Both the position numbers and the translations under genes were made by a program. From Candidatus Berkelbacteria bacterium (GTDB taxonomy: Bacteria > Patescibacteriota > UBA1384 > 2-12-FULL-50-11), in NCBI GenBank assembly GCA_030650195.1, contig JAUSEP010000051.1:1-32742 (forward strand): 32,742 nucleotides of DNA. Reading direction: 5' to 3'. Below the pieces are notes generated by a model, which saw only the letters and a list, made by a program, of their open reading frames with translations, was not told the origin of the DNA and made no database searches. Shown here piece by piece: positions 7,049-20,787 of the stretch. Position 1 is the stretch's first letter, and each line of letters opens with the position of its first letter.

Positions 7049-7765
7049 TTAGTTGTTCAATTCGAAGTTACTCGAAACTTTCGTCACGTCGTCTAAGTCA
7101 TCGAGAGCCGTAGCAAGCTTTATAATTCTTTCGGATAGCTTATCGTCTGTTATTGGGACCGTAGTAGTTGGATGGAACTCAAAGCTAACTTCGTTACTTT
7201 CAAAACCAGCCGTAGCAAGACTTCTTCGAACGTGTTCCAGTTCCTTTGGATCTGTATATATAAACACACGACTATCTTCCGTCTCAAAGTCTTCTGCCCC
7301 AGCTTCTATGGCAGCCAGCTCTGCTGTTTCAGGATCTACATTTTCTAAAACAATCTGTCCTCGCTTTTTAAATAAATAGCCGACCGAACCACTTTCAGCT
7401 AACTTAGCATCATATTTGTTCAAGACGGCTCGGATATCTCCGACAGAACGGTTACGGTTATCTGTCGCCGTTTCAATTAAAAATGCTGTTCCTCCAGGAC
7501 CGTAGGCTTCAAAGGTAATCTCTTCCATAGCAGAAGCACCACCACCTTTTACTTTATCTATGGCCCGTTCAATATTATCTTTGGGCATATTAGCTGCTCG
7601 TGCCCGATCAACTGCCAAGCGGAGCTGGAAGTTCATTTCCGGATCTGCTCCGTTTCGAGCCGCTACAGTAATAGCGTTGGCTAACTTTGAGAATACCGCG
7701 CCGCGTTTAGCGTCTGCGGCGCCCTTCTGGTGCTTTATGCTGTGCCATTTGCTATGACCTGACAT
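7049..7765 (-). CDS. yebC: YebC/PmpR/TACO1 family protein
   Basis: YebC-family proteins are conserved bacterial factors described as transcriptional regulators and, more recently, as ribosome-associated factors that help translation of proline-rich stretches. The signature N-terminus MSGHSKWHSIKHQKGAADAK is followed by RGAVFSKLANAITVAAR, PKDNIERAIDK and EAYGPGGTAFLIE, all diagnostic. Length (238 residues) is standard. The ATG at 7765 is chosen over the GTG one codon upstream because the protein begins MSGHS in the family. TAAAAT lies 9 nt before the ATG. Confidence 0.95.
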   Translation of the reverse strand: MSGHSKWHSIKHQKGAADAKRGAVFSKLANAITVAARNGADPEMNFQLRLAVDRARAANMPKDNIERAIDKVKGGGASAMEEITFEAYGPGGTAFLIETATDNRNRSVGDIRAVLNKYDAKLAESGSVGYLFKKRGQIVLENVDPETAELAAIEAGAEDFETEDSRVFIYTDPKELEHVRRSLATAGFESNEVSFEFHPTTTVPITDDKLSERIIKLATALDDLDDVTKVSSNFELNN

Positions 7766-7809
7766 CACCCTGTTATTTTACTGCTAAGAGAGTGTTTAAT
7801 AAAGCGATC

Positions 7810-8679
7810 CTATAGACCGGTTTTATAGCTATAAGCACTTTCAGTTATATCGAAACGAATCGTACCGTCTTGGTCGGTTCGTAGAACGGGGATATTTAGA
7901 ATCTTTAAGCGGTCGATAACCTCTTGATGTGGGTGGCCGTAAGAGTTTCCTTTGCCTGCCGAAATGGCCGTAATTTTAGGACTAACTATCTTAAGGAATT
8001 CTTCACTGGAAGCGGTGCGTGAGCCATGGTGAGAAATTTTTAAGATATCTGCATGGCGCAACACTCCTCTTGCGATCATTGCTTGTTCTTGTGGTATCTC
8101 AGCATCTCCAGTTAATAGAAAAGTCTCCGTTCCATACTGCCAGAACATTACGATACTAGTAGAGTTCTGTGAATCGGGTGTGATACCGTCGTAACTTTGC
8201 AGGGGAGATATAACAATTCCTTGTAATGAACCAAAACTTACAGTTGAACCAGCCATTACTTTTTCTGTAGGAATTTGTTTTTCGGCAATCAAGCTAAGGA
8301 ATGTTTGGTAAGTTTTTGTTGTTCCAACGGAGCCAGTTAACCAAACTTTGTCTACCTTGTAGTGTTTAAAAACTTCATTTAGACCTCCCATATGATCGGC
8401 ATCATCATGAGTGGAGATAACTAGATCGATCTCTTTATCTGTAATAGGCAAAGCCTTGGAGAGCTCGGAAAGAACTGATGAGCCCCTACCACCATCAACC
8501 AGTATCTGCTGATGAGCTGGTGTATCTATGAGTATTGAATCCCCTTGGCCAACATCTAATATCCAAAGGCGGAGCGAACCGTCGTTATTTTCAGCTGCTT
8601 GGTACTGAGAAGCACCAAAAGTGATTAAGAGCAAAAAAGCGATAACAATAATGAATTGAATTACCTTGTTAGACTTCAT
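7810..8679 (-). CDS. ComEC-type metallo-beta-lactamase-fold protein (stand-alone, anchored)
   Basis: A 289-residue protein with an N-terminal membrane helix or uncleaved signal (residues 6-22) and an exported metallo-beta-lactamase domain like the C-terminal domain of ComEC. Metal motifs are THDDADH (90-96), LTGDAE and SHHGS, with VDGGRG before them. In long ComEC proteins this domain is proposed to act as the nuclease that degrades one strand of incoming DNA. Here it is a separate gene whose start overlaps the 3' end of the channel gene by 11 nt, implying coupled translation and a joint function in DNA uptake. About half of a normal ComEC is thus encoded separately. Confidence 0.85.
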   Translation of the reverse strand: MKSNKVIQFIIVIAFLLLITFGASQYQAAENNDGSLRLWILDVGQGDSILIDTPAHQQILVDGGRGSSVLSELSKALPITDKEIDLVISTHDDADHMGGLNEVFKHYKVDKVWLTGSVGTTKTYQTFLSLIAEKQIPTEKVMAGSTVSFGSLQGIVISPLQSYDGITPDSQNSTSIVMFWQYGTETFLLTGDAEIPQEQAMIARGVLRHADILKISHHGSRTASSEEFLKIVSPKITAISAGKGNSYGHPHQEVIDRLKILNIPVLRTDQDGTIRFDITESAYSYKTGL

Positions 8680-9868
8680 CTTTTTTAGCTCCTAGTCGAT
8701 CAAAAAGATCATATTGCAACGGTCGTTTAATATTTAACCATTCTAAGCCACCGACAATTAGCACCATGAAGGCCGCAATAATCCAACCGGGTAGAGTTAA
8801 GTTAGTCGAAGCGAATTGCCAGGAAGCGAGTTTTTCGCTGATCCAAACTATCCAGGAAAGTAGCGGCCAGCTAGCTAACATAAGCGTGTTACCAATAATG
8901 GGAACAATCATTAGCGCCGCACCGATAATGCCGATAGCCATAGCTAATGGAATTAGCGGTAAAACAAGAACGTTAGCAAGCGGTGAGATAACCGAAAGTC
9001 GCTCAAAGTGCCCGATAATTAGCGGTGTCGTGAGAATTATCGCAGCAAAGGTTTCCGCTAGAATTTGCTGCAAAGTTACGGGTAGCTTAGTTTTGGAAAG
9101 TAATCTATTAAGATACGGAGAAAGACGAATTAAGCCGTAAGTGGCACCAACAGATAATTGGAATCCAACATCAAAAACAGTTTTTGGTTCAAACAGCACC
9201 AAGATGGCGGCAGCAAAAATTAGAACGTTGATAGCTTTGTTCGGGCGACCTAAATATTTAGCTAGTAGTACCGTCAGAGCCATTGCCGCCGCTCGCAATA
9301 TCGAAGACGGGGCACCAGTAATAATAACAAACACGACTATTAAGCCAGCCGAAACCCATAGTGCTTTGCGCCCCATAATAGGCCAGAAAATGCTTAAGGC
9401 ATTAGCGGTTAAAATAGTTAGGTTGTATCCAGAAACGGCAATAATATGGGTTAAACCAACGGCACGAAACGTATCGATCAAATCTTTATCTAACTTCACC
9501 CGGTTTCCGAGTAGTATTCCTGACATTAATGAACCTTGCGGTTCGGGCAATGCAAAAGAAATTTTATCTACTATTAAGTCACGCAAGTTTCCAAGTGAGT
9601 CTGATACTCTTCCAATAATTGCTAAGTTTAACCAGACTTCGCCGGAAGTCATTTGCCATAGGAAAGCACCGAAAGTTAAACCAAACAAACTCCAAGCTAT
9701 TGTTTCGATTGGTTCAGTCTGACCGCTGAGGGCAACTATCAGCCAAAGAGCAGTAATCCAACCTAGTACTAAGCGATCAACTTCGACATAGGAGCCAATA
9801 GCTGCTCCAGCAATAATTGCTAAGCAAGTTAAGGCGAATTTACGACTGGGTGTTAGAGAAAACTCCAT
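8669..9868 (-). CDS. comEC: ComEC/Rec2 competence channel, channel domain only
   Basis: A 399-residue polytopic membrane protein forming the inner-membrane DNA channel for transformation. The Competence domain begins near residue 90: SGILLGNRVKLDKDL then FRAVGLTHIIAVSGYNLTIL (the family signature), APSSILRAAAMA, and many hydrophobic helices to the C-terminus. The usual N-terminal OB-fold region (DUF4131) is replaced by only two or three short helices, and the metallo-beta-lactamase domain is in the next gene. The start ATG at 9868 lies 6 nt after an extended -10 (TGATATACA), so the mRNA is probably leaderless. Confidence 0.9.
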   Translation of the reverse strand: MEFSLTPSRKFALTCLAIIAGAAIGSYVEVDRLVLGWITALWLIVALSGQTEPIETIAWSLFGLTFGAFLWQMTSGEVWLNLAIIGRVSDSLGNLRDLIVDKISFALPEPQGSLMSGILLGNRVKLDKDLIDTFRAVGLTHIIAVSGYNLTILTANALSIFWPIMGRKALWVSAGLIVVFVIITGAPSSILRAAAMALTVLLAKYLGRPNKAINVLIFAAAILVLFEPKTVFDVGFQLSVGATYGLIRLSPYLNRLLSKTKLPVTLQQILAETFAAIILTTPLIIGHFERLSVISPLANVLVLPLIPLAMAIGIIGAALMIVPIIGNTLMLASWPLLSWIVWISEKLASWQFASTNLTLPGWIIAAFMVLIVGGLEWLNIKRPLQYDLFDRLGAKKDEV

Positions 9869-11221: not shown

Positions 11222-13132
11222 ATGGGTAAAATAATTGGAATTGATCTAGGTACAACTAACTCGGCTTCAGCTGTTATTGAAGGCGGCAAAGCTAAAATGA
11301 TCCCAACTGCTGAAGGCGGTAACTTAGTGCCGTCTATTGTTGCGATAAATAAAAAAGGTGAAAGACTTGTAGGTACTCTTGCTAAACGTCAGTCCGTTAC
11401 TAATCCAGAAAATACAGTTTATTCCGTTAAGCGTCTAATGGGTCGTAATTTCTCTGATGAGGAAGTTCAAAGAGATATTAAACTAATGCCGTACAAGATC
11501 GTTAAAAGTGGTGATGGCGTTAAAGTAACTATTGGAGATAAAGACCAAACTCCACAAGAGATCTCCTCTATGATTCTCTCTAAGATCAAGTCTGATGCCG
11601 AGGCCTACCTTGGTGAAAAAGTTGATGGTGCTGTTATTACCGTTCCGGCCTACTTCAACGACTCCCAGCGCCAAGCTACTAAAGACGCTGGTGTAATCGC
11701 TGGCTTAGATGTTAAACGCATAATTAACGAACCAACCGCTGCCGCCCTGGCCTACGGTATTAATAAAGAAGATAAAAAAGATCAAAAAGTTGCAGTTTAT
11801 GACTTTGGTGGTGGAACCTTTGATATCACCATTATCGAAATAGGTGAAGATAAAGGTGAATCCAGCTTCGAAGTCCTCTCCACTAATGGCGATACCCACT
11901 TAGGTGGAGATGATATCGACATTCAAGTAATGAACTGGATTGTTGAAGAATTTAAAAACAAAGAAGGAGTAGATATTACTGGGGATGCCATGGCGATGCA
12001 GCGAGTAAAAGAAGCGGCTGAAAAAGCTAAAATCGAACTCTCTCAAACCCAGGAAGCCGAGATTAACCTGCCGTTTATTACCGCTGACGCTGATGGTCCA
12101 AAGAATCTGCAGATGAACTTATCTCGTGCAAAATTAGAAAGTTTGGTTGGGGATTTGGTTAAAAAAACCAGCAATATTTCTGAAGCCGCCCTCAAAGACG
12201 CAAAACTCACTAAATCTGATATCGACGAAGTAATTCTTGTTGGTGGGATGACCCGCATGCCGTTAATCCAATCTGTTGTTAAAGAAGTTTTTGGCAAAGA
12301 ACCTTCCAAAGGTGTGAACCCTGATGAAGCTGTTGCCCTGGGGGCGGCTATTAACGGCGGCGTTCTATCTGGTGAAGTTAAGGATATTCTTCTGCTTGAT
12401 GTCACCCCGCTGACACTCGGCTTGGAAACGCTTGGTGGAGTAATGACGCCGTTAATTGAGCGTAACACCACTATCCCTGCCTCTAAAACTGAAACCTTCT
12501 CAACTGCTAGCGACAACCAGCCGTCAGTGGAAATTCATGTTTTGCAAGGCGAACGACCAATGGCCAGCGACAACCGCACTCTCGGTAAATTCCATCTCGA
12601 TGGTATTCCACCGGCTCCGCGTGGTGTCCCGCAAGTGGAAGTCACCTTTGATTTGGACGCTAACGGTATTTTAAATGTTAAAGCCAAAGACAAGGCCACC
12701 TCCAAAGAGCAGCACATCACCATTACCGCTAGCTCCGGTCTTTCCAAAGAAGAGATTGAAAAAATGAAAACCGAGGCCGAGGCTCACGCCGCCGACGACG
12801 CTAAGAAAAAAGAACTCGTCGAAGAGCGTAACGGCGCCGAAAACCTCATTCACTTGAGTGAAAAAACCCTCAAAGATGCAGGCGATAAGGTCAAACCAGA
12901 CGACAAACGCGAGGTTGAAGACGCCGTCACCGCCGTCAAAGCTGTTATCCACAACGACGACAAAGATAAAATTAAAGAGGAAGCGGAGAAACTTTCCGCC
13001 GCCCTCCAAAAAGTCGGCGCCGCGATGTATGAGCAGAACGCTGCTGACGCACCGAAGCCGGAAGAAGAACTGCCAAAAGACGACGGCACTCCGGACACCA
13101 ATGTGCCGGAAGACCCAAAGGAAACGAAGTAA
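11222..13132 (+). CDS. dnaK: chaperone DnaK (Hsp70)
   Basis: ATP-driven chaperone working with DnaJ and GrpE. The 636-residue protein starts [15 protein letters not shown] (phosphate-binding loop 1) and shows [55 protein letters not shown], the linker [11 protein letters not shown], and a normal substrate-binding domain and lid. The C-terminal tail is acidic and Pro-rich ([16 protein letters not shown]..., ending PKETK) and lacks the usual EEVD-like end. A nearly identical tail ends the unrelated protein at 13870-15231. Expressed from its own promoter with the palindromic operator and a good Shine-Dalgarno, in contrast to the many leaderless genes nearby. A strong terminator follows at 13153-13184. 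Confidence 0.97.
13058..13122 (+). repeat. 65-bp repeat, copy 1 (dnaK 3' end)
   Basis: Encodes the DnaK tail ending [18 protein letters not shown]. It matches 15145-15209 at 61 of 65 positions by hand alignment with no gaps, in the same reading frame. Confidence 0.9.
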
Positions 13133-13152: not shown

Positions 13153-13184
13153 AAAAGAGGCGGGCCAGTCGGCCCGCCTCTTTT
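13153..13184 (+). terminator. dnaK terminator (repeat family copy 1)
   Basis: A 14-bp stem (AAAAGAGGCGGGCC with GGCCCGCCTCTTTT) and loop AGTC. The stem is almost the same as those at 13808-13838 and 17402-17429. Confidence 0.92.
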
Positions 13185-13807: not shown

Positions 13808-13838
13808 AAAGCGGCGGGCCAGTTGGCCCGCCGCTTTT
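13808..13838 (+). terminator. terminator (repeat family copy 2)
   Basis: Stem GCGGCGGGCC with GGCCCGCCGC, loop AGTT, extended by AAA/TTT, then TTTTG. It closes the 13243-13788 gene. Confidence 0.9.
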
Positions 13839-13869: not shown

Positions 13870-15231
13870 ATGGATGAAATAGATAAGCAGATTCCAGAGG
13901 GCGCAGAGAGGTTCGTAGCTCCTGAAATAGGCGATAACAGTGGAATAGAGCTTGCTCCCGAAATCGAGGCAAGTAACACGGGGAAAGTACAAGATCTTGA
14001 GAAGAATTCAGAGAATGAGCAATCGCAAGAACTGCAAGATTTGCATTCTAAAAAAACGTTATATGACAGCGAAATTGAAGAGTTAGAGCAACAGAAGAGG
14101 ATACTTACAGACGCAATCGACCGGACGAAAGAAATTGCTGTTAAATGGGGAGGATCTCAAAATTTGAGTGATAACTATATAATTGAAATGCCTAGGGACT
14201 ACGGAAGTTTACATATGATCAAAAAGGACATTGATGAAAAACTAAGGTCAATCAATAGACAGTTATCACCCAAGTATATTTGGAGAATAAATGTAGATCG
14301 AAGAATTGGCCAATTAGAAAGAACGCCTGAAGATATAGAAAGAATCTCTAATGCCGCAATGGAAAGAGTACAAGACATCACTCAATTTGGTATCTGTTAT
14401 CACGAAAGTATGCTTCTTGAATCTCAAATTAAAGACATCGTTGAGAATGGCTTTTCATCAAGATCTCAACTTGAAATCGAGGGCAGAACAAATTATTTAA
14501 GGGGTATAAATATTTTCCCTGAAATGATATCTTTCAGCATGAAATCTGACCCCGAAAAACCTATCAAACTCGAATATGGTCATGCAGGTAATATTGAACC
14601 AAGAATTCAAGATTATGGTTTATATTACCAGGTGAGTCTTCTATTAAATAGCAAATTTATAGACGAATTAGTCGTTAAAGGAGAGAAGCCGATTTTATTT
14701 ACAGGAGAGTACTTCAAAGAACAAGAGGGACAAGCGCGAGCGGTAGAGTATCTGAAGGCTAAGGGGTGGTACGAGCGCTTACAGAACTGCCTGCCCCCTA
14801 TTGGTAAGGAAGAAGATACATACGATCATCGAGGAATAAAGAATGCTAAACCTTGGCGTTTTGAGATATTAATGTATCCAGAAGACCAAAGCACAGCAGT
14901 TGAAAATCCAATCGGTGGGTTAGTAATGGGTCGGCTATATGATGAGTTGCCAGAACTAATCATTGACGCTTCAGTCAAGTCCCTTAGAAACGCCATACCA
15001 ATTTACGATCCAAGAGGTAATCTTTTATGGCCCAAGCGAATGAATTACAAAGAGGTGAAGAAGATGGTGACTGAGAGAGACGAGCAACAGCTAGCGGCTG
15101 AGCAACCTAAGGATGGCGAAGCCAACAGCTCTACTGAATTAGAACCGGAAAAAGAACTGCCGAAAGACGACGGCACTCCGGACACCAATGTGCCGGAAGA
15201 ACCAAAAGATGCCGGGGATAAAAAGGACTAA
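13870..15231 (+). CDS. hypothetical coiled-coil protein with a DnaK-like C-terminal tail
   Basis: A 453-residue protein of unknown function. Residues 40-130 are predicted coiled coil, rich in E, K, Q and L. The middle part (about 160-400) looks globular, with segments GRTNYLRGINIFPEMISFSM and ENPIGGLVMGRLYDELPELII; I recognise no family. The last 30 residues are an acidic tail containing [15 protein letters not shown], identical to the DnaK tail and encoded by nearly the same DNA. The start ATG lies 6 nt after TATAAA (extended as TGTATAAAT), so the mRNA is probably leaderless. A perfect 28-bp palindrome follows the gene. Confidence 0.75.
   Translation: MDEIDKQIPEGAERFVAPEIGDNSGIELAPEIEASNTGKVQDLEKNSENEQSQELQDLHSKKTLYDSEIEELEQQKRILTDAIDRTKEIAVKWGGSQNLSDNYIIEMPRDYGSLHMIKKDIDEKLRSINRQLSPKYIWRINVDRRIGQLERTPEDIERISNAAMERVQDITQFGICYHESMLLESQIKDIVENGFSSRSQLEIEGRTNYLRGINIFPEMISFSMKSDPEKPIKLEYGHAGNIEPRIQDYGLYYQVSLLLNSKFIDELVVKGEKPILFTGEYFKEQEGQARAVEYLKAKGWYERLQNCLPPIGKEEDTYDHRGIKNAKPWRFEILMYPEDQSTAVENPIGGLVMGRLYDELPELIIDASVKSLRNAIPIYDPRGNLLWPKRMNYKEVKKMVTERDEQQLAAEQPKDGEANSSTELEPEKELPKDDGTPDTNVPEEPKDAGDKKD
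15145..15209 (+). repeat. 65-bp repeat, copy 2 (tail of the 453-residue protein)
   Basis: Same-frame copy of dnaK positions 13058-13122 with four substitutions and no indel. After it the sequence diverges into a short Lys/Asp-rich end. Confidence 0.9.
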
Positions 15232-15877: not shown

Positions 15878-16555
15878 TCAGACGTTTACGACTTTTGTAA
15901 TCCTTGAGATCCGAAAAGTTCTACCTTCATTTCTCAAGTGGCAGTAACTGCTTAAATAATATTGGCCGCTCTCGCAAACTATACCTTTTGGCGTAATTCG
16001 TCGATTAGTGCTTTGATTGTTCTTATCAAGATAATCAATGACTAAATCATCACCGCTCCTAAGCGAAGAGTTGATGATAGATATTTTTGAATCTTTTACT
16101 TTGTAATTAAATCCGTAGCTCCTGAGGTCGTCACGTTCAACATTATCGGAAAAAGTACGATTGTGCCGATTCTGGTGACAATCCTTACAAAGCGTTGTCA
16201 GGTTCTCCATTACGTTCTTCCCGCCCAAAGAAAGAGGTATTATATGGTGAGCTTGTAGGCTCAACTGCGTTCCGCAGTTAGTACATTTTCCACCATCTCT
16301 CTGAATTACTTTTGCTCGCAGCGAGGGCCACGGCCCCCTAACTATATCTTTCGATATTGGAGTAACAATTCTCTGCTCCATCCTCTCGGAAGGGCTGACG
16401 ATACTTTCTGTTTGGTTAAGGCTCCCACCCGTTAATAAGCGACTAGGGTCACTAATTGTTTCTTCTCGATCTGTCCCAGGATCCTTTTTAGTTCCTTCCT
16501 CCTGAATTTTGATAATCACGTAGATAGCCGCTAAGAAAATAAACACCCAAATCAT
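15878..16555 (-). CDS. membrane-anchored HNH nuclease with C-terminal WYL-like domain
   Basis: A 225-residue protein. Residues 2-20 (IWVFIFLAAIYVIIK) form a membrane helix. A linker of about 60 residues leads to an HNH domain (KVIQRDGGKCTNCG, LQAHHIIPLSLGG, LTTLCKDCHQNRHN) with both CxxC zinc pairs and the HH catalytic pair. The C-terminus resembles a WYL domain: VIDYLDKNNQSTNRRITPKG then YYLSSYCHLRNEGRTFRISRI. WYL domains bind ligands or nucleic acid and control defence genes or effectors. The combination of anchor, HNH and WYL-like part is unusual. The ATG at 16555 is preferred over an alternative TTG at 16627; AACAAT 7 nt upstream may be a -10 of a leaderless mRNA. Confidence 0.7.
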   Translation of the reverse strand: MIWVFIFLAAIYVIIKIQEEGTKKDPGTDREETISDPSRLLTGGSLNQTESIVSPSERMEQRIVTPISKDIVRGPWPSLRAKVIQRDGGKCTNCGTQLSLQAHHIIPLSLGGKNVMENLTTLCKDCHQNRHNRTFSDNVERDDLRSYGFNYKVKDSKISIINSSLRSGDDLVIDYLDKNNQSTNRRITPKGIVCESGQYYLSSYCHLRNEGRTFRISRITKVVNV

Positions 16556-16600
16556 CACTGAGATTGTTTCATAATTACGAGCACAAGATAACTTTAGGCT

Positions 16601-16620
16601 GGATTTTCGCTCAATTTTCC
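16601..16620. repeat. ATTTTCGCTCAATT element, copy A
   Basis: The 20-bp stretch contains GGATTTTCGCTCAATTTTC. Related copies are at 21462-21480 and 22068-22089. It lies 46-65 nt upstream of the HNH-WYL start and also just before the PEP-CTERM gene on the other strand. Confidence 0.6.
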
Positions 16621-16665
16621 GATACAATTTGGCGGCTGGAATTAGTTTTCAGCAAGGAGAGGGTT

Positions 16666-17382
16666 TTGAAAAAGCTCTTTACAATTTTGTTCGCACTTGC
16701 GGCTTTGGCCGCCTCGTCATTTGCCACCGACTGGACTTTCATCCAAGACAGACTCAATGACCCTGTCTACAGCGGGCCAAGCGGCTTGCAGGGCGAGATT
16801 TCCGGAGATTCGATCCACATCTTCGGTACCAACACCGAAACGCCTCCGGGTAATGGCGACCCCCTACGCTTTTGGCCTGGTCTTTCTGCCGAAAGTACGA
16901 CATAATTTACTGGATTCACCCTGGATGCCAACGCGACACTCAATGGGTCGGGATCAGGATTCATGTACGGCATCACCGTTTGGGGTGATCGGTCGCACTA
17001 TATAATGTACGGGCTCGATTTTGATGACAGCTTCCCGTACCAGCCCTCCAAGTGGACGGCCTATGGTGGGTCACCACAACCCGACATTATGCCGAGCTGG
17101 ACGAGGCTTGGAGGTCTACTTAGCAACCCTAACGATCCGCACCGAGTCAAGGTCGAGCTGATTGGTGGGTTCACCAAGTTTTGGATCGACGATATCTTGC
17201 TCGATACGACTTCGTTCTCGATGCCAAATGCCAAGCTTCGCCTCGGTGCGTTTGCCTGGACGAACGGCGACACTGTCGACGCAACCTATTCTTCAATTGT
17301 GGTTTCGCCCGTTCCCGAACCAGCGACGATCGCGATTCTCGGAATCGGCCTGGCTCTCATTGCCAAGCGCCGACGAAAATGA
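16666..17382 (+). pseudogene. PEP-CTERM sorted exoprotein interrupted by an in-frame TAA
   Basis: The frame starts at a TTG with a strong Shine-Dalgarno (AAGGAG, 6 nt spacing) and encodes a signal peptide (MKKLFTILFALAALAASSFA), then a beta-rich secreted domain. A TAA stands at codon 80 (16903-16905). The same frame then continues without a shift as FTGFTLDANATLNGSGSG, MYGITVWGD and a LamG-like region (FWIDDILLDTTSF) up to a textbook PEP-CTERM signal: VPEPATIAILGIG, further hydrophobics, then KRRRK. Such proteins are anchored or released by exosortase; no exosortase gene is in this window. The intact total would be 238 residues. Either the gene is dead by a point nonsense mutation, or a sequencing error made the TAA. 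A terminator follows. Confidence 0.8.
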
Positions 17383-17401
17383 TCACCTCTTCCATCTCGA
17401 T

Positions 17402-17429
17402 GCGGCGGGCCCACTGGCCCGCCGCTTTT
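17402..17429 (+). terminator. terminator (repeat family copy 3)
   Basis: Stem GCGGCGGGCC with GGCCCGCCGC, loop CACT, then TTTTG. The stem is identical to copy 2. It closes the PEP-CTERM gene. Confidence 0.9.
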
Positions 17430-17473
17430 GCTATGCACTGAACCTGTTTTGGGATAAAATCAACAACATATTA

Positions 17474-18169
17474 ATGAAGAAGATTCAGAACGATATATTG
17501 AGCTACCGAGAAATGTGTGAGGCCGAAAACACTCAGACATTGCAACGAGGGATGAATTTTCGAATGAATCCCGCCTACTCCGTTATTCTTATGTCACAAA
17601 GGTCAAACGCTCCTTACAAGGACAGAATCGACGAAGACGGAATGACAATTGAATACGAAGGCCATGACACTACGAAAAAATCTTACGACCACAATCCTAA
17701 GACGGAAGATCAACCGAAGAGATTGCCCAGTGGCCGCCTAACTCAAAACGGGATGTTTGTAAAAGCTGTTGAAGAGTTCAAGGGCGGGGAAGATCCGGAG
17801 TTAATAAAGGTTTACGAGAAGGTATTACCAGGGATTTGGTCCCTAAAGGGTTTTTTCGATCTTGTCGACTACAAGATACTTCGCGACGACCAACGTAGCG
17901 TCTTTCGTTATGTCTTAAGGCTTTCTAATCGAGAAGGAATGAGCAAGACGATATCAGTGAACATTGAACATACTAGATTGATTTCCTCGGAAATCAAAAA
18001 AATAGTTTGGAAACGAGATCAGGGGAAATGCGTTATCTGCGGCAGTAATAAAAATTTACATTTTGATCACGATCTGCCTTTTGCCAAAGGCGGAACTAGC
18101 CTATCAGCAAAAAATGTTCGATTGTTATGCATGACGCATAATTTACAAAAATCGGACAAGATTGAGTAA
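17474..18169 (+). CDS. SRA/YDG-like HNH endonuclease, probable modification-dependent restriction enzyme
   Basis: A 231-residue protein. Residues 30-160 resemble an SRA-type base-flipping domain: SVILMSQRSNAPYKDRI, DGMTIEYEGHD (56-65), GRLTQNGMFVKAV, then VYEKVLPGIWSLKGFFDLVD followed by FRYVLRLS. Residues 175-231 are an HNH nuclease with CVIC (186-189), HFDHD (196-200), N214, C219 and HN (222-223), missing no expected residue. SRA-HNH proteins are known type IV enzymes that cut DNA with 5-methyl- or 5-hydroxymethylcytosine. The ATG at 17474 is chosen because the frame upstream lies inside the PEP-CTERM gene and terminator. TAAAAT lies 13 nt upstream. The next gene, 50 nt downstream, is another nuclease. 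Confidence 0.7.
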   Translation: MKKIQNDILSYREMCEAENTQTLQRGMNFRMNPAYSVILMSQRSNAPYKDRIDEDGMTIEYEGHDTTKKSYDHNPKTEDQPKRLPSGRLTQNGMFVKAVEEFKGGEDPELIKVYEKVLPGIWSLKGFFDLVDYKILRDDQRSVFRYVLRLSNREGMSKTISVNIEHTRLISSEIKKIVWKRDQGKCVICGSNKNLHFDHDLPFAKGGTSLSAKNVRLLCMTHNLQKSDKIE

Positions 18170-18219
18170 ATATTTGCCTGAACTATTAGGAACAAAATAA
18201 CAGGAGTAAAATAGTAGAG

Positions 18220-19230
18220 ATGTCTACGATTGATATTTTTAAGAAAATAAACAGAAATGCTTTCAACGAAAAGCTGATCCATCGATATTTATTTGAGCAG
18301 TACTACTTTGGATCTTCACAACAACGGAAAGGACTACTCCCCGAAAGACTCCACCGATTACAGGTAAACTTAATTGTGCCCGAAGGGTCTAAGACCGAAG
18401 CCGGGTACAGGGCAGATCTGGAGATCTTCTTCAAAAACAAACTGAACGGTGTCCCAGTCGAAGTGAAATGGCATCTAGATGATTTTAGAAAAGATAACCA
18501 AAAGAAATACATCAGAGAAAATGATGGTTTTCTCGTAGTCCTGGGGGAGACAGAGGAGAAGATATTCGAAGGAATTGATGTCGTAACAATCGACCATGAT
18601 GATTTTGCAGATTGGATAGCAGATAATATTTCGCGGCTTTCGAGAGAGTCTTTGATTTATCAGGCCGAAAGTAAAAAGCTGTCGAGTAAAAATCAGTATT
18701 GGGTAGTTTTTCTCAAGGGTGGTGCGACCGGACCAGCTATGAACAACTTCCACCGAATGCTTAAGAGTAAGAAGACGAAACCCTTCTGGGCATTCAGACA
18801 GAATCCTAAGGCCCTACCCCACATCCTAGACATGCAAAGAGGAGATAGGATAATTTTCTTGTTTGGAAAAGCTGGACTCGGCATGGCAATGCAGAAGGAC
18901 CCTAAAACAGAGGTGGTACTTTGTGGATATTATTTTTGTAATATTGCAGAGCCATATTATATGGCCCTAGACAATTCTCGCGGGTTATTTTTTGAGGACG
19001 CAGAGAGGAAACCGGGGATCAATGATCGGAAATGGCCGCACTTCTTCGACTTTGACATCAAAAAAAGATCTAAAAAAGGTTGCAATATACAATTCGGAAA
19101 GCAGGGTGAGTTTGCCGAAGCATTCTCAAACTCGTTCAACTTTGGCGGCGGCACCCCTTACCCACTTTCACGATCGCAGTATGAAAAGTTAAAGGATCGT
19201 TTATATAAACTTACCGAAATAAAAGTATAG
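18220..19230 (+). CDS. PD-(D/E)XK nuclease with PUA/EVE-like C-terminal domain
   Basis: A 336-residue protein not assigned to a named family. The N-terminal part (about 15-125) fits a PD-(D/E)XK nuclease: D66 in YRADLEIFF and EVK at 81-83 in GVPVEVKW, with DGFLVVLG as the next core strand. The C-terminal part (about 158-330) resembles a PUA-fold EVE/ASCH-type domain: YWVVFLKGG, FWAFRQNPKALPHILDMQRGD, IIFLF, GYYFCNIAEPYY and KWPHFFDF. EVE-like domains read modified bases, so this may be a second modification-dependent nuclease beside the SRA-HNH gene. The ATG at 18220 lies 7 nt after TAAAAT, which suggests a leaderless transcript of its own rather than coupling. Confidence 0.6.
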   Translation: MSTIDIFKKINRNAFNEKLIHRYLFEQYYFGSSQQRKGLLPERLHRLQVNLIVPEGSKTEAGYRADLEIFFKNKLNGVPVEVKWHLDDFRKDNQKKYIRENDGFLVVLGETEEKIFEGIDVVTIDHDDFADWIADNISRLSRESLIYQAESKKLSSKNQYWVVFLKGGATGPAMNNFHRMLKSKKTKPFWAFRQNPKALPHILDMQRGDRIIFLFGKAGLGMAMQKDPKTEVVLCGYYFCNIAEPYYMALDNSRGLFFEDAERKPGINDRKWPHFFDFDIKKRSKKGCNIQFGKQGEFAEAFSNSFNFGGGTPYPLSRSQYEKLKDRLYKLTEIKV

Positions 19231-19269
19231 GAAACTGTTCTTTTTAGCTTGCCTCTACAAGAGCCACTA

Positions 19270-19332
19270 ATGCATAAAATTTCCCGTTCAAAAATTGACT
19301 TGTTTACCGAATGCCCACGGTGTTTTTGGTTG
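19270..19332 (+). repeat. 63-bp direct repeat, left copy
   Basis: Matches 20098-20160 at 62 of 63 positions. The two copies are 828 bp apart start to start and bracket the RHH/PIN module and its promoter. Confidence 0.92.
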
Positions 19333-19338
19333 AATTAA
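19270..19338 (+). pseudogene. truncated 5' copy of the Cas4/RecB-like nuclease gene
   Basis: The first 63 bp match the start of the intact gene at 20098 with a single mismatch. The encoded peptide runs MHKISRSKIDLFT then CPRCFWLN and ends at a TAA after 22 codons. The copy and the intact start flank the toxin-antitoxin module as direct repeats. Confidence 0.9.
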
Positions 19339-19413
19339 TAGCTTATTCTCACTTTCTAAAACCCAACCAATAACCAACCAGTAACTATTCACATACCAAC
19401 ATACATCTAGACA

Positions 19414-19467
19414 GTGTTATTAATAATTAATAACACTCTTGACAACGTTATTAACATTTAATAAACT
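19414..19467 (+). promoter_or_regulatory. toxin-antitoxin promoter and operator
   Basis: A perfect 23-bp palindrome (19414-19436, arms GTGTTATTAAT, central A) ends 2 nt before TTGACA (19439-19444). A second, imperfect copy of the motif (GTTATTAAC...TTTAATAAAC) lies in the spacer. The -10 is TAAACT at 19462-19467 with 17-bp spacing, 8 nt before the antitoxin ATG. This is the layout of an autoregulated operon bound by an RHH antitoxin. Confidence 0.75.
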
Positions 19468-19475
19468 TAGTCCAA

Positions 19476-19691
19476 ATGGCAATAGTAAGTATCTCAATCC
19501 CGAGCGAAATTAACGCCAAGGCCAGCGATCTGGCCAAGAAGCAACGGCTTTCAAAAAGTCAGGTTTTTGCTGAGGCGTTGGAAAGTTATGAGATTAGAAA
19601 GTCTTGGCAGGAGCTTCGAGTAATCGGTGATAAGTATGCTAAGCTCTTCGGCATTGAAACCGATGACGATGTCGAAAAATTCTTCGGCTAA
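19476..19691 (+). CDS. RHH-type antitoxin
   Basis: A 71-residue protein. Residues 1-45 form a ribbon-helix-helix: strand VSISIPSEI, then helices NAKASDLAKKQR and SKSQVFAEALESY. Such proteins bind DNA as dimers and neutralise a toxin with their C-terminal part, here acidic (ETDDDVEKFFG). The gene overlaps the PIN toxin gene by 23 nt, the usual antitoxin-first order. The operator and promoter are directly upstream. Confidence 0.85.
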   Translation: MAIVSISIPSEINAKASDLAKKQRLSKSQVFAEALESYEIRKSWQELRVIGDKYAKLFGIETDDDVEKFFG

Positions 19692-20097
19692 GTTCAGAGT
19701 AGTCTTTGACACCAATATCTATATCGCTGCATTTTTGCGGCCGGGTTTGTGCGAGACTTTGCTCGAAAGGGCAAACCAGGGAGCTTTCGAACTTTATGTT
19801 ACGCAAGAAATAATGGATGAGACGCTAAACAAATTGAAAACAAAAATGAAAGTGTCAAACATCGACCTGGAAAAATTTTCTACTCATATCAAGAAAATCG
19901 CCCGGCTTGTGGAGCCGCGCCAGAAGTTGGACGTGATTAAGGATGACCCAGACGACAATAAGATCCTTGAATGTGCGGCCGAAGCAAAAGCTAATCTAAT
20001 AGTTTCGCTCGATCATCACTTGACCGATCTCAAATCGTATGGCGACGCAGGGATTGTTCACCCAAAGACCTTGAAGTGGATCGTTCCTACCGACTAA
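19669..20097 (+). CDS. PIN-domain toxin, VapC-like ribonuclease
   Basis: A 142-residue PIN-domain protein, presumed Mg-dependent RNase. VVFDTNIYIAAFL contains the first catalytic Asp (residue 14), VTQEIMDET the central Glu, and DDPDDNKILECAAEAKANLIVSLDHHL the C-terminal acidic residues. The ATG at 19669 overlaps the antitoxin; an in-frame ATG 6 nt earlier is also possible. The stop TAA at 20095-20097 is immediately followed by the ATG of the nuclease gene, because the module sits exactly at that gene's start. The family group is the PIN_3-like putative toxins rather than classical short VapC. Confidence 0.85.
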   Translation: MSKNSSAKFRVVFDTNIYIAAFLRPGLCETLLERANQGAFELYVTQEIMDETLNKLKTKMKVSNIDLEKFSTHIKKIARLVEPRQKLDVIKDDPDDNKILECAAEAKANLIVSLDHHLTDLKSYGDAGIVHPKTLKWIVPTD

Positions 20098-20160
20098 ATG
20101 CATAAAATTTCCCGTTCAAAAATTGACTTGTTTACCGACTGCCCACGGTGTTTTTGGTTG
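20098..20160 (+). repeat. 63-bp direct repeat, right copy
   Basis: The first 63 bp of the intact nuclease gene. One mismatch to 19270-19332 turns Glu in the left copy to Asp here. Confidence 0.92.
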
Positions 20161-20787
20161 GACCAAGTTAAGGGCGTTAAGCGTCCAAGCGGTCCAGCAT
20201 TTTCCTTGAATATCGCCGTAGATGAATTGTTTAAAAAAGAATTTGATGTTTATCGATCTAAAGGAACCGCTCATCCAATCATGAAGGAATACGGCATTGA
20301 GGCTGTACCATTTCAACACGAAAAAATAGATGTTTGGCGTAGTAACTTTACAGGAGTTCAATACCATCACAAATTAACAGATTTATTAGTTTTTGGTGCT
20401 CCTGATGATATTTGGGTAACACCTGAGGGAACTCTTCACGTTGTTGACTATAAGGCCACTTCTACCAAAGACGAAACAGATTTTGGCTCTAAAGAACATC
20501 ACAGCCATTACATGCGCCAAGTGGAAGTTTACCAATGGCTGTTGCGTCAAAACGGCTTCAAGGTAAGTGATACTGCCTATTTTGTTTTTGCTAATGCTCG
20601 TAAAAAAGAAGATGGTTTCCACGGCCGATTGGATTTTGAAATTAAAATATTCCCCCATGTTGGTACTGACAGTTGGATAGAACCAATACTAGAAGGTATT
20701 GCTCACTGTTTTAAAAAGAAAAAATCTCCCTCTTGTTCAAAAGGTTGTCTTTACTGCCACTACACTGCATCCGCTGGGGCGGAATAG
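20098..20787 (+). CDS. PD-(D/E)XK nuclease, Cas4/RecB C-terminal-like
   Basis: A 229-residue nuclease of the Cas4/RecB family. It has SRSKIDLFTDCPRCFWLD at the N-terminus (two Cys), GAPDDIWV with the Asp, HVVDYKATS as the DxK core strand, and QVEVYQWLL as the QxxxY motif. C-terminal cysteines C-S-K-G-C-L-Y-C complete a possible Cas4-like Fe-S or zinc site. No cas genes or CRISPR array are in the window, so it is a stand-alone enzyme, perhaps in repair or DNA uptake. Its native promoter was probably cut off by the module inserted before it; expression may now depend on the toxin-antitoxin promoter. Confidence 0.8.
   Translation: MHKISRSKIDLFTDCPRCFWLDQVKGVKRPSGPAFSLNIAVDELFKKEFDVYRSKGTAHPIMKEYGIEAVPFQHEKIDVWRSNFTGVQYHHKLTDLLVFGAPDDIWVTPEGTLHVVDYKATSTKDETDFGSKEHHSHYMRQVEVYQWLLRQNGFKVSDTAYFVFANARKKEDGFHGRLDFEIKIFPHVGTDSWIEPILEGIAHCFKKKKSPSCSKGCLYCHYTASAGAE

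Follow-up and report, generated by a model that had tools for sequence, protein, structure and literature searches.

Two candidate modification-dependent nucleases encoded side by side in a Patescibacteria genome

Do two neighboring genes, each of which appears to join a reader of modified DNA to a nuclease, encode one restriction system or two enzymes that merely share a locus? The question is raised by p1 and p2, two genes located in a 32,742-nucleotide stretch of DNA (hereafter the window) that constitutes one complete contig in the assembly of a Patescibacteria genome (G000; 787 kb). The original prediction described them as a probable two-nuclease modification-dependent restriction system and suggested that they may represent a new type IV defence pair. 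Modification-dependent nucleases serve as tools to map modified cytosines, and p1 and p2 are compact candidates for such enzymes from uncultured Patescibacteria.

We confirmed both open reading frames, which are intact and lie on the same strand: p1 at 17474-18169 (+; 231 aa) and p2 at 18220-19230 (+; 336 aa). The predicted 50-nt gap was also found (18170-18219, +); it contains an AGGAG purine stretch and lacks a plus-strand terminator. The p1 reading frame stays open in the 5' direction as far as a TTG at 17162. However, its start is likely the ATG at 17474 because alignments with homologues begin only at residue 1-8. An intrinsic-terminator-like hairpin upstream of p1 (17402-17428, +) divides this gene from a PEP-CTERM-like ORF. 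Given that this hairpin is strong and that no plus-strand terminator lies between the two genes, co-transcription is likely, and p1 and p2 probably share one transcript.

A compact SRA reader joined to an HNH nuclease

The first gene had been predicted to combine an SRA/YDG-like reader with a complete HNH site. Direct Pfam matches of p1 were weak (HNH_5, E = 1.4e-3; SAD_SRA, E = 0.01). Among 380 Patescibacteria genomes, full-length relatives with 62-67% identity were detected in four, and a remnant with a match of 45 residues was detected in a further genome (G278). The SAD_SRA profile gave sub-threshold matches to p1 and to three of its four full-length homologues, hence to four of five family members. 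When reader fragments of the homologues were searched, this profile matched three of them with E values of 1.2e-4 to 9.3e-3 and covered up to positions 14-147 of its 148; matches spanning nearly all of it had E values of 1.2e-4 to 1.1e-3. The HNH profile exceeded the Pfam cut-off in three homologues, whereas every SRA score for p1, like every EVE score for p2, fell below the curated cut-off. The AlphaFold model of p1, generated from five sequences, is of low confidence (mean pLDDT 48). A Foldseek comparison of this model with the PDB ranked TagI first (6ghs; E = 1.3e-3, probability 1.00) and the SRA domain of SUVH5 second, with MspJI at rank 12 and the UHRF1 SRA domain also present.

The HNH core of p1 (18028-18166, +) comprises C186-x2-C189, D198-H199, N214, C219-x2-H222, and N223. 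D198-H199, N214, and N223 make up an HNH core of the H-N-N form, and C186, C189, C219, and H222 constitute a probable zinc site. All of these residues are invariant across the five homologues save H222, which is replaced by Cys in three. Tyr48, Asp50, Asp55, and Tyr61 of the reader are likewise invariant. The base-flipping pocket of TagI is formed by Y55, D58, and Y67 (PMC6212794), and the Tyr-Tyr spacing is 13 in p1, compared to 12 in the TagI pocket, so that any assignment of the p1 residues to such a pocket is tentative. Because the profile matches and the structure comparison converge, p1 is best read as an SRA-HNH protein, in line with the prediction.

SRA-HNH modification-dependent endonucleases have been established experimentally (TagI, ScoA3IV, and TbiR51I; PMC6212794). 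Like TagI, p1 places the SRA domain before the HNH domain in a single polypeptide (predicted at residues ~9-155 and ~170-231, respectively) and possesses the His and Asn of the HNH core. In contrast, p1 has 231 aa versus the 285 residues of the TagI structure, and it scores below the Pfam SRA cut-off. Two HNH residues also differ: the residue before the first HNH His is Asp198 in p1 but Ala228 in TagI, and the third HNH position is Asn in p1 but His254 in TagI (PMC6212794). By analogy with TagI, 5mC or 5hmC would be flipped out of the helix by the SRA domain of p1, and dimerised HNH domains would then cleave or nick the DNA, with a variable distance between the two sites. The significance of p1 lies in its membership of an SRA-HNH family of 231 aa that is overlooked when the Pfam SRA cut-off is applied.

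The prediction had also remarked on the absence of a methyltransferase, and this observation extends to the genome: none of PF00145, PF01555, and PF02384 (C5, N4/N6, and N6 methyltransferases) was found in the whole assembly, which is ~93% complete. A single sub-threshold Eco57I match occurs on contig 77. If p1 and p2 act on modified DNA, they could operate without a partner methyltransferase because the unmodified DNA of the host would not be a substrate. A C5 methyltransferase is present in 93 of the 380 sampled genomes and in none of the six that carry p1 or its remnant (G000 included). Since the chance of obtaining zero of six from this background is about 0.18, the difference is not significant; we rejected it as proof and regard it only as consistent.

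An EVE reader and a candidate PD-(D/E)XK nuclease

The p2 family gave no significant match in Pfam, PADLOC, NCBIfam, or PHROGs. We identified one homologue with 74% identity in a Ca. Liptonbacteria genome (L002) and reached a second, with 38-39% identity, in a prophage (L033) by profile search. The EVE Pfam profile matched the Ca. Liptonbacteria homologue below threshold (E = 0.032 for the whole protein and 0.0072 for its C-terminal half). The AlphaFold model of p2, generated from three sequences, is of low confidence (mean pLDDT 54), with a better resolved C-terminal half. In Foldseek, the best twelve PDB matches of this model consisted of EVE proteins, among them THYN1 with 5mC DNA, and of the T. 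gammatolerans McrB reader, which is EVE/YTH-like; five YTH domains followed. Foldseek searches of viral structures returned only EVE-like and unnamed matches, and profile searches against PDB sequences returned no reader match. As judged from the sub-threshold profile matches and the model, the p2 reader (residues ~158-336) is an EVE domain, with a PUA-superfamily fold, as had been proposed. The Foldseek matches to SRA for p1 and EVE for p2 are also in line with the proposal that both readers belong to folds that bind modified cytosines.

The proposed PD-(D/E)XK core of p2 fared less evenly. Its putative active site, D66 ... E81-V-K83 (18415-18468, +), lies within the N-terminal region (residues ~1-150), and Asp66, Glu81, and Lys83, together with Glu17, Asn93, and Gln94, are invariant across three homologous sequences, with identities of 74% and 38-39%. 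On its own, the D...ExK pattern is present in 69% of shuffled p2 sequences, and a stricter form with hydrophobic neighbors in 6.6%; given the weakness of the bare pattern against shuffles, the weight of the motif lies in its conservation. The predicted residues are thus conserved, but no match to the fold was obtained: none of the PD-(D/E)XK Pfam families matched fragments from the N-terminal part of p2, and the model, with N-terminal pLDDT values mostly of 27-60, matched no PD-(D/E)XK structure in the PDB. Conservation of the motif makes a PD-(D/E)XK fold the best reading of the N-terminal half. During catalysis, the EVE domain would flip a modified base into an aromatic pocket, and the N-terminal domain would cut near the flipped base.

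Bell et al. 2020 listed EVE-PD(D/E)XK among the core architectures that they predicted for putative type IV endonucleases (PMC7641849). p2 resembles this class at the two-domain level, in its pairing of an EVE reader with a predicted PD-(D/E)XK nuclease and in its defence contexts, but its family is not recognized by the four libraries named above. VcaM4I, an EVE-HNH endonuclease whose EVE reader flips 5mC/5hmC (PMC7897488), also fuses an EVE reader to a nuclease. However, its EVE domain is N-terminal and accompanied by HNH, whereas that of p2 is C-terminal and preceded by a PD-(D/E)XK-like region. PvuRts1I/AbaSI and MspJI, which link PD-(D/E)XK nucleases to SRA-like readers, share with p1 and p2 the combination of a nuclease and a modified-cytosine reader; they differ in that the p2 reader is EVE and the p1 nuclease is HNH. 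Both proposed architectures are already known, SRA-HNH by experiment and EVE-PD(D/E)XK by prediction. The interest of p2 is that it belongs to a rare candidate nuclease-EVE family outside every profile library used.

One system or two enzymes

Overall, with a probability of roughly 0.7, we favor the reading that the neighboring genes p1 and p2 encode separate restriction endonucleases, both of them NTP-independent and modification-dependent (type IV-like). The predicted two-nuclease modification-dependent restriction thus survives in part: each protein is best read as a type IV nuclease, but the two do not appear to make up a joint system. Catalysis, the bases recognized, and an anti-phage role are what we infer for both proteins.

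Relatives of p1 and p2 are located in defence neighborhoods. One p1 relative adjoins a TdeIII-type restriction-modification pair. The prophage relative of p2 sits inside a prophage hotspot, 5' of a lysozyme gene and 3' of an FRG-domain PDC-S15 gene. In Ca. Liptonbacteria, the gene order is the p2 homologue, a C5 methyltransferase, PADLOC mREase_II, a Vsr nuclease, and PDC-M33A/B/C. The homologue lies directly upstream of the C5 methyltransferase, on the same strand and 80 bp away. This arrangement is the most informative detail of the analysis since it limits what p2 can recognize: with a C5 methyltransferase encoded next door, generic cutting at 5mC would be dangerous, and an attack by p2 on 5mC in every context is accordingly less likely. 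It also makes the modification read by the homologue directly testable.

One possible consequence, which we consider a minority reading, is that the EVE domain of p2 senses a base other than 5mC, such as 5hmC, a glucosylated or hypermodified phage base, or, through a YTH-like pocket, N6-methyladenine. The hazard posed by the neighboring methyltransferase and the YTH domains among the weaker structural matches of p2 are consistent with this proposal. However, the top matches are EVE proteins, one of them solved with 5mC DNA, and the conflict with the methyltransferase could also be resolved by differences in sequence context.

The same arrangement could instead suggest that p2 is the restriction enzyme of a restriction-modification system whose methyltransferase was lost in G000 and persists beside it in Ca. 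Liptonbacteria. We consider this improbable. There, another restriction-enzyme candidate follows the methyltransferase immediately (mREase_II; PADLOC E = 1e-60, faintly similar to Eco15I of the BisI family), and no methyltransferase was recognized in the 10.9 kb examined at the locus of the prophage relative. As none of the searched methyltransferases occurs in G000, an active orthodox enzyme would be lethal to its host, and the EVE reader points to modified targets. We rejected the reading of p2 as an orthodox restriction enzyme.

Somewhat less probable still is a single type IV system with p1 and p2 as its two components, whose readers and nucleases would work together on one modified DNA target. 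The shared strand, the 50-nt gap, the likely common transcript with no plus-strand terminator between the genes, and the binding of cytosine modifications by both reader folds are all compatible with such a system. However, neither protein needs the other, since a reader and a nuclease are present in both, and the distribution of relatives offers no sign of a partnership. We examined co-occurrence in the 380 Patescibacteria genomes (G000 included) and in one genome-contig scan with p2 patterns. p1 matches were present in 5 of the 379 other genomes (four full-length, one remnant) and p2 in none of the 379, hence in none of the five p1 carriers. Conversely, neither relative of p2 has p1 alongside, and no p1 was found in the whole Ca. 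Liptonbacteria genome or in the viral record containing the prophage. Searches for close relatives gave none of p1 or p2 in viral contigs and none of p2 in phages and plasmids; p1 matched only HNH domains in plasmids, and an iterated p2 search of viral contigs recovered only the one prophage. Across 55 genomes of the class, a profile search yielded a single further match (66 residues within a 1722-codon open frame in G383), which we did not count as a relative. Co-occurrence outside G000 had been named beforehand as the test of a new type IV defence pair, and within the sample searched we found none; no relative found carries both genes, and we therefore do not uphold that proposal. Because the relatives found carry one gene or the other, the evidence favors independent inheritance, with adjacency reflecting a small defence cluster and not a joint machine.

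In E. coli K-12, the mcrBC, mrr, and hsd genes are kept together, and adjacency of type IV enzymes is unsurprising in itself. The locus looks like ordinary anti-phage genes side by side and establishes no new defence system.

We consider it very unlikely that the region is decaying defence DNA and that p1, p2, or both have lost activity: the start of a PDDEXK_1 gene is duplicated over 64 nt just 3' of p2 and p1 has shrunk to a 45-residue match in G278, but both ORFs are intact and retain their candidate active-site residues. Equally improbable is a co-expressed unit in which p1 and p2, with an SRA and an EVE reader and a different nuclease each, would cooperate against hypermodified phage DNA; p2 would then sense a non-5mC base and so coexist with C5 methyltransferases.

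Other features of the window and related loci

Five nuclease-like ORFs are clustered within 5 kb (15878-20787). Besides p1 and p2, they include an HNH-WYL ORF (15878-16627, -), a PIN toxin-like gene (19666-20097), and the PDDEXK_1 (Cas4/RecB-like) gene (20098-20787). The first 22 codons of the last gene are copied just 3' of p2, forming a 64-nt direct repeat (19269-19332 and 20097-20160; 98% identical). The repeats flank a 764-bp stretch with the PIN-domain gene, an arrangement suggestive of a scar left by a recent rearrangement or insertion. When window genes were tested for synteny with the loci of family members, only the downstream PDDEXK_1 gene matched, so the insertion is undatable by this comparison. 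In the p1 carrier G285, a PDDEXK_1 gene homologous to that of the window (51%; L029, 12762-13514) lies ~2.7 kb 3' of p1.

In the Ca. Liptonbacteria locus, the C5 methyltransferase, the 'methyl-directed' mREase_II, and the Vsr gene occupy 7092-9029 in that order; it would be paradoxical for a nuclease that depends on methylation to adjoin its own methyltransferase.

Upstream of p1, the ORF at 16660-17382 lies in a G+C-richer stretch and ends with a PEP-CTERM-like sorting motif (VPEPATIAILGIGLALIAKRRRK), which is unexpected in Patescibacteria. Near-identical GC-rich terminator hairpins (GGCGGGCC...GGCCCGCC) follow three different genes, at 13153-13183, 13808-13838, and 17402-17428. Finally, the acidic C-terminal tail of DnaK (13058-13122) is duplicated at 15145-15209 with 94% identity at the DNA level; the copy ends the ORF at 13870-15231, and similar tails match in two other genomes (G359 and G381).
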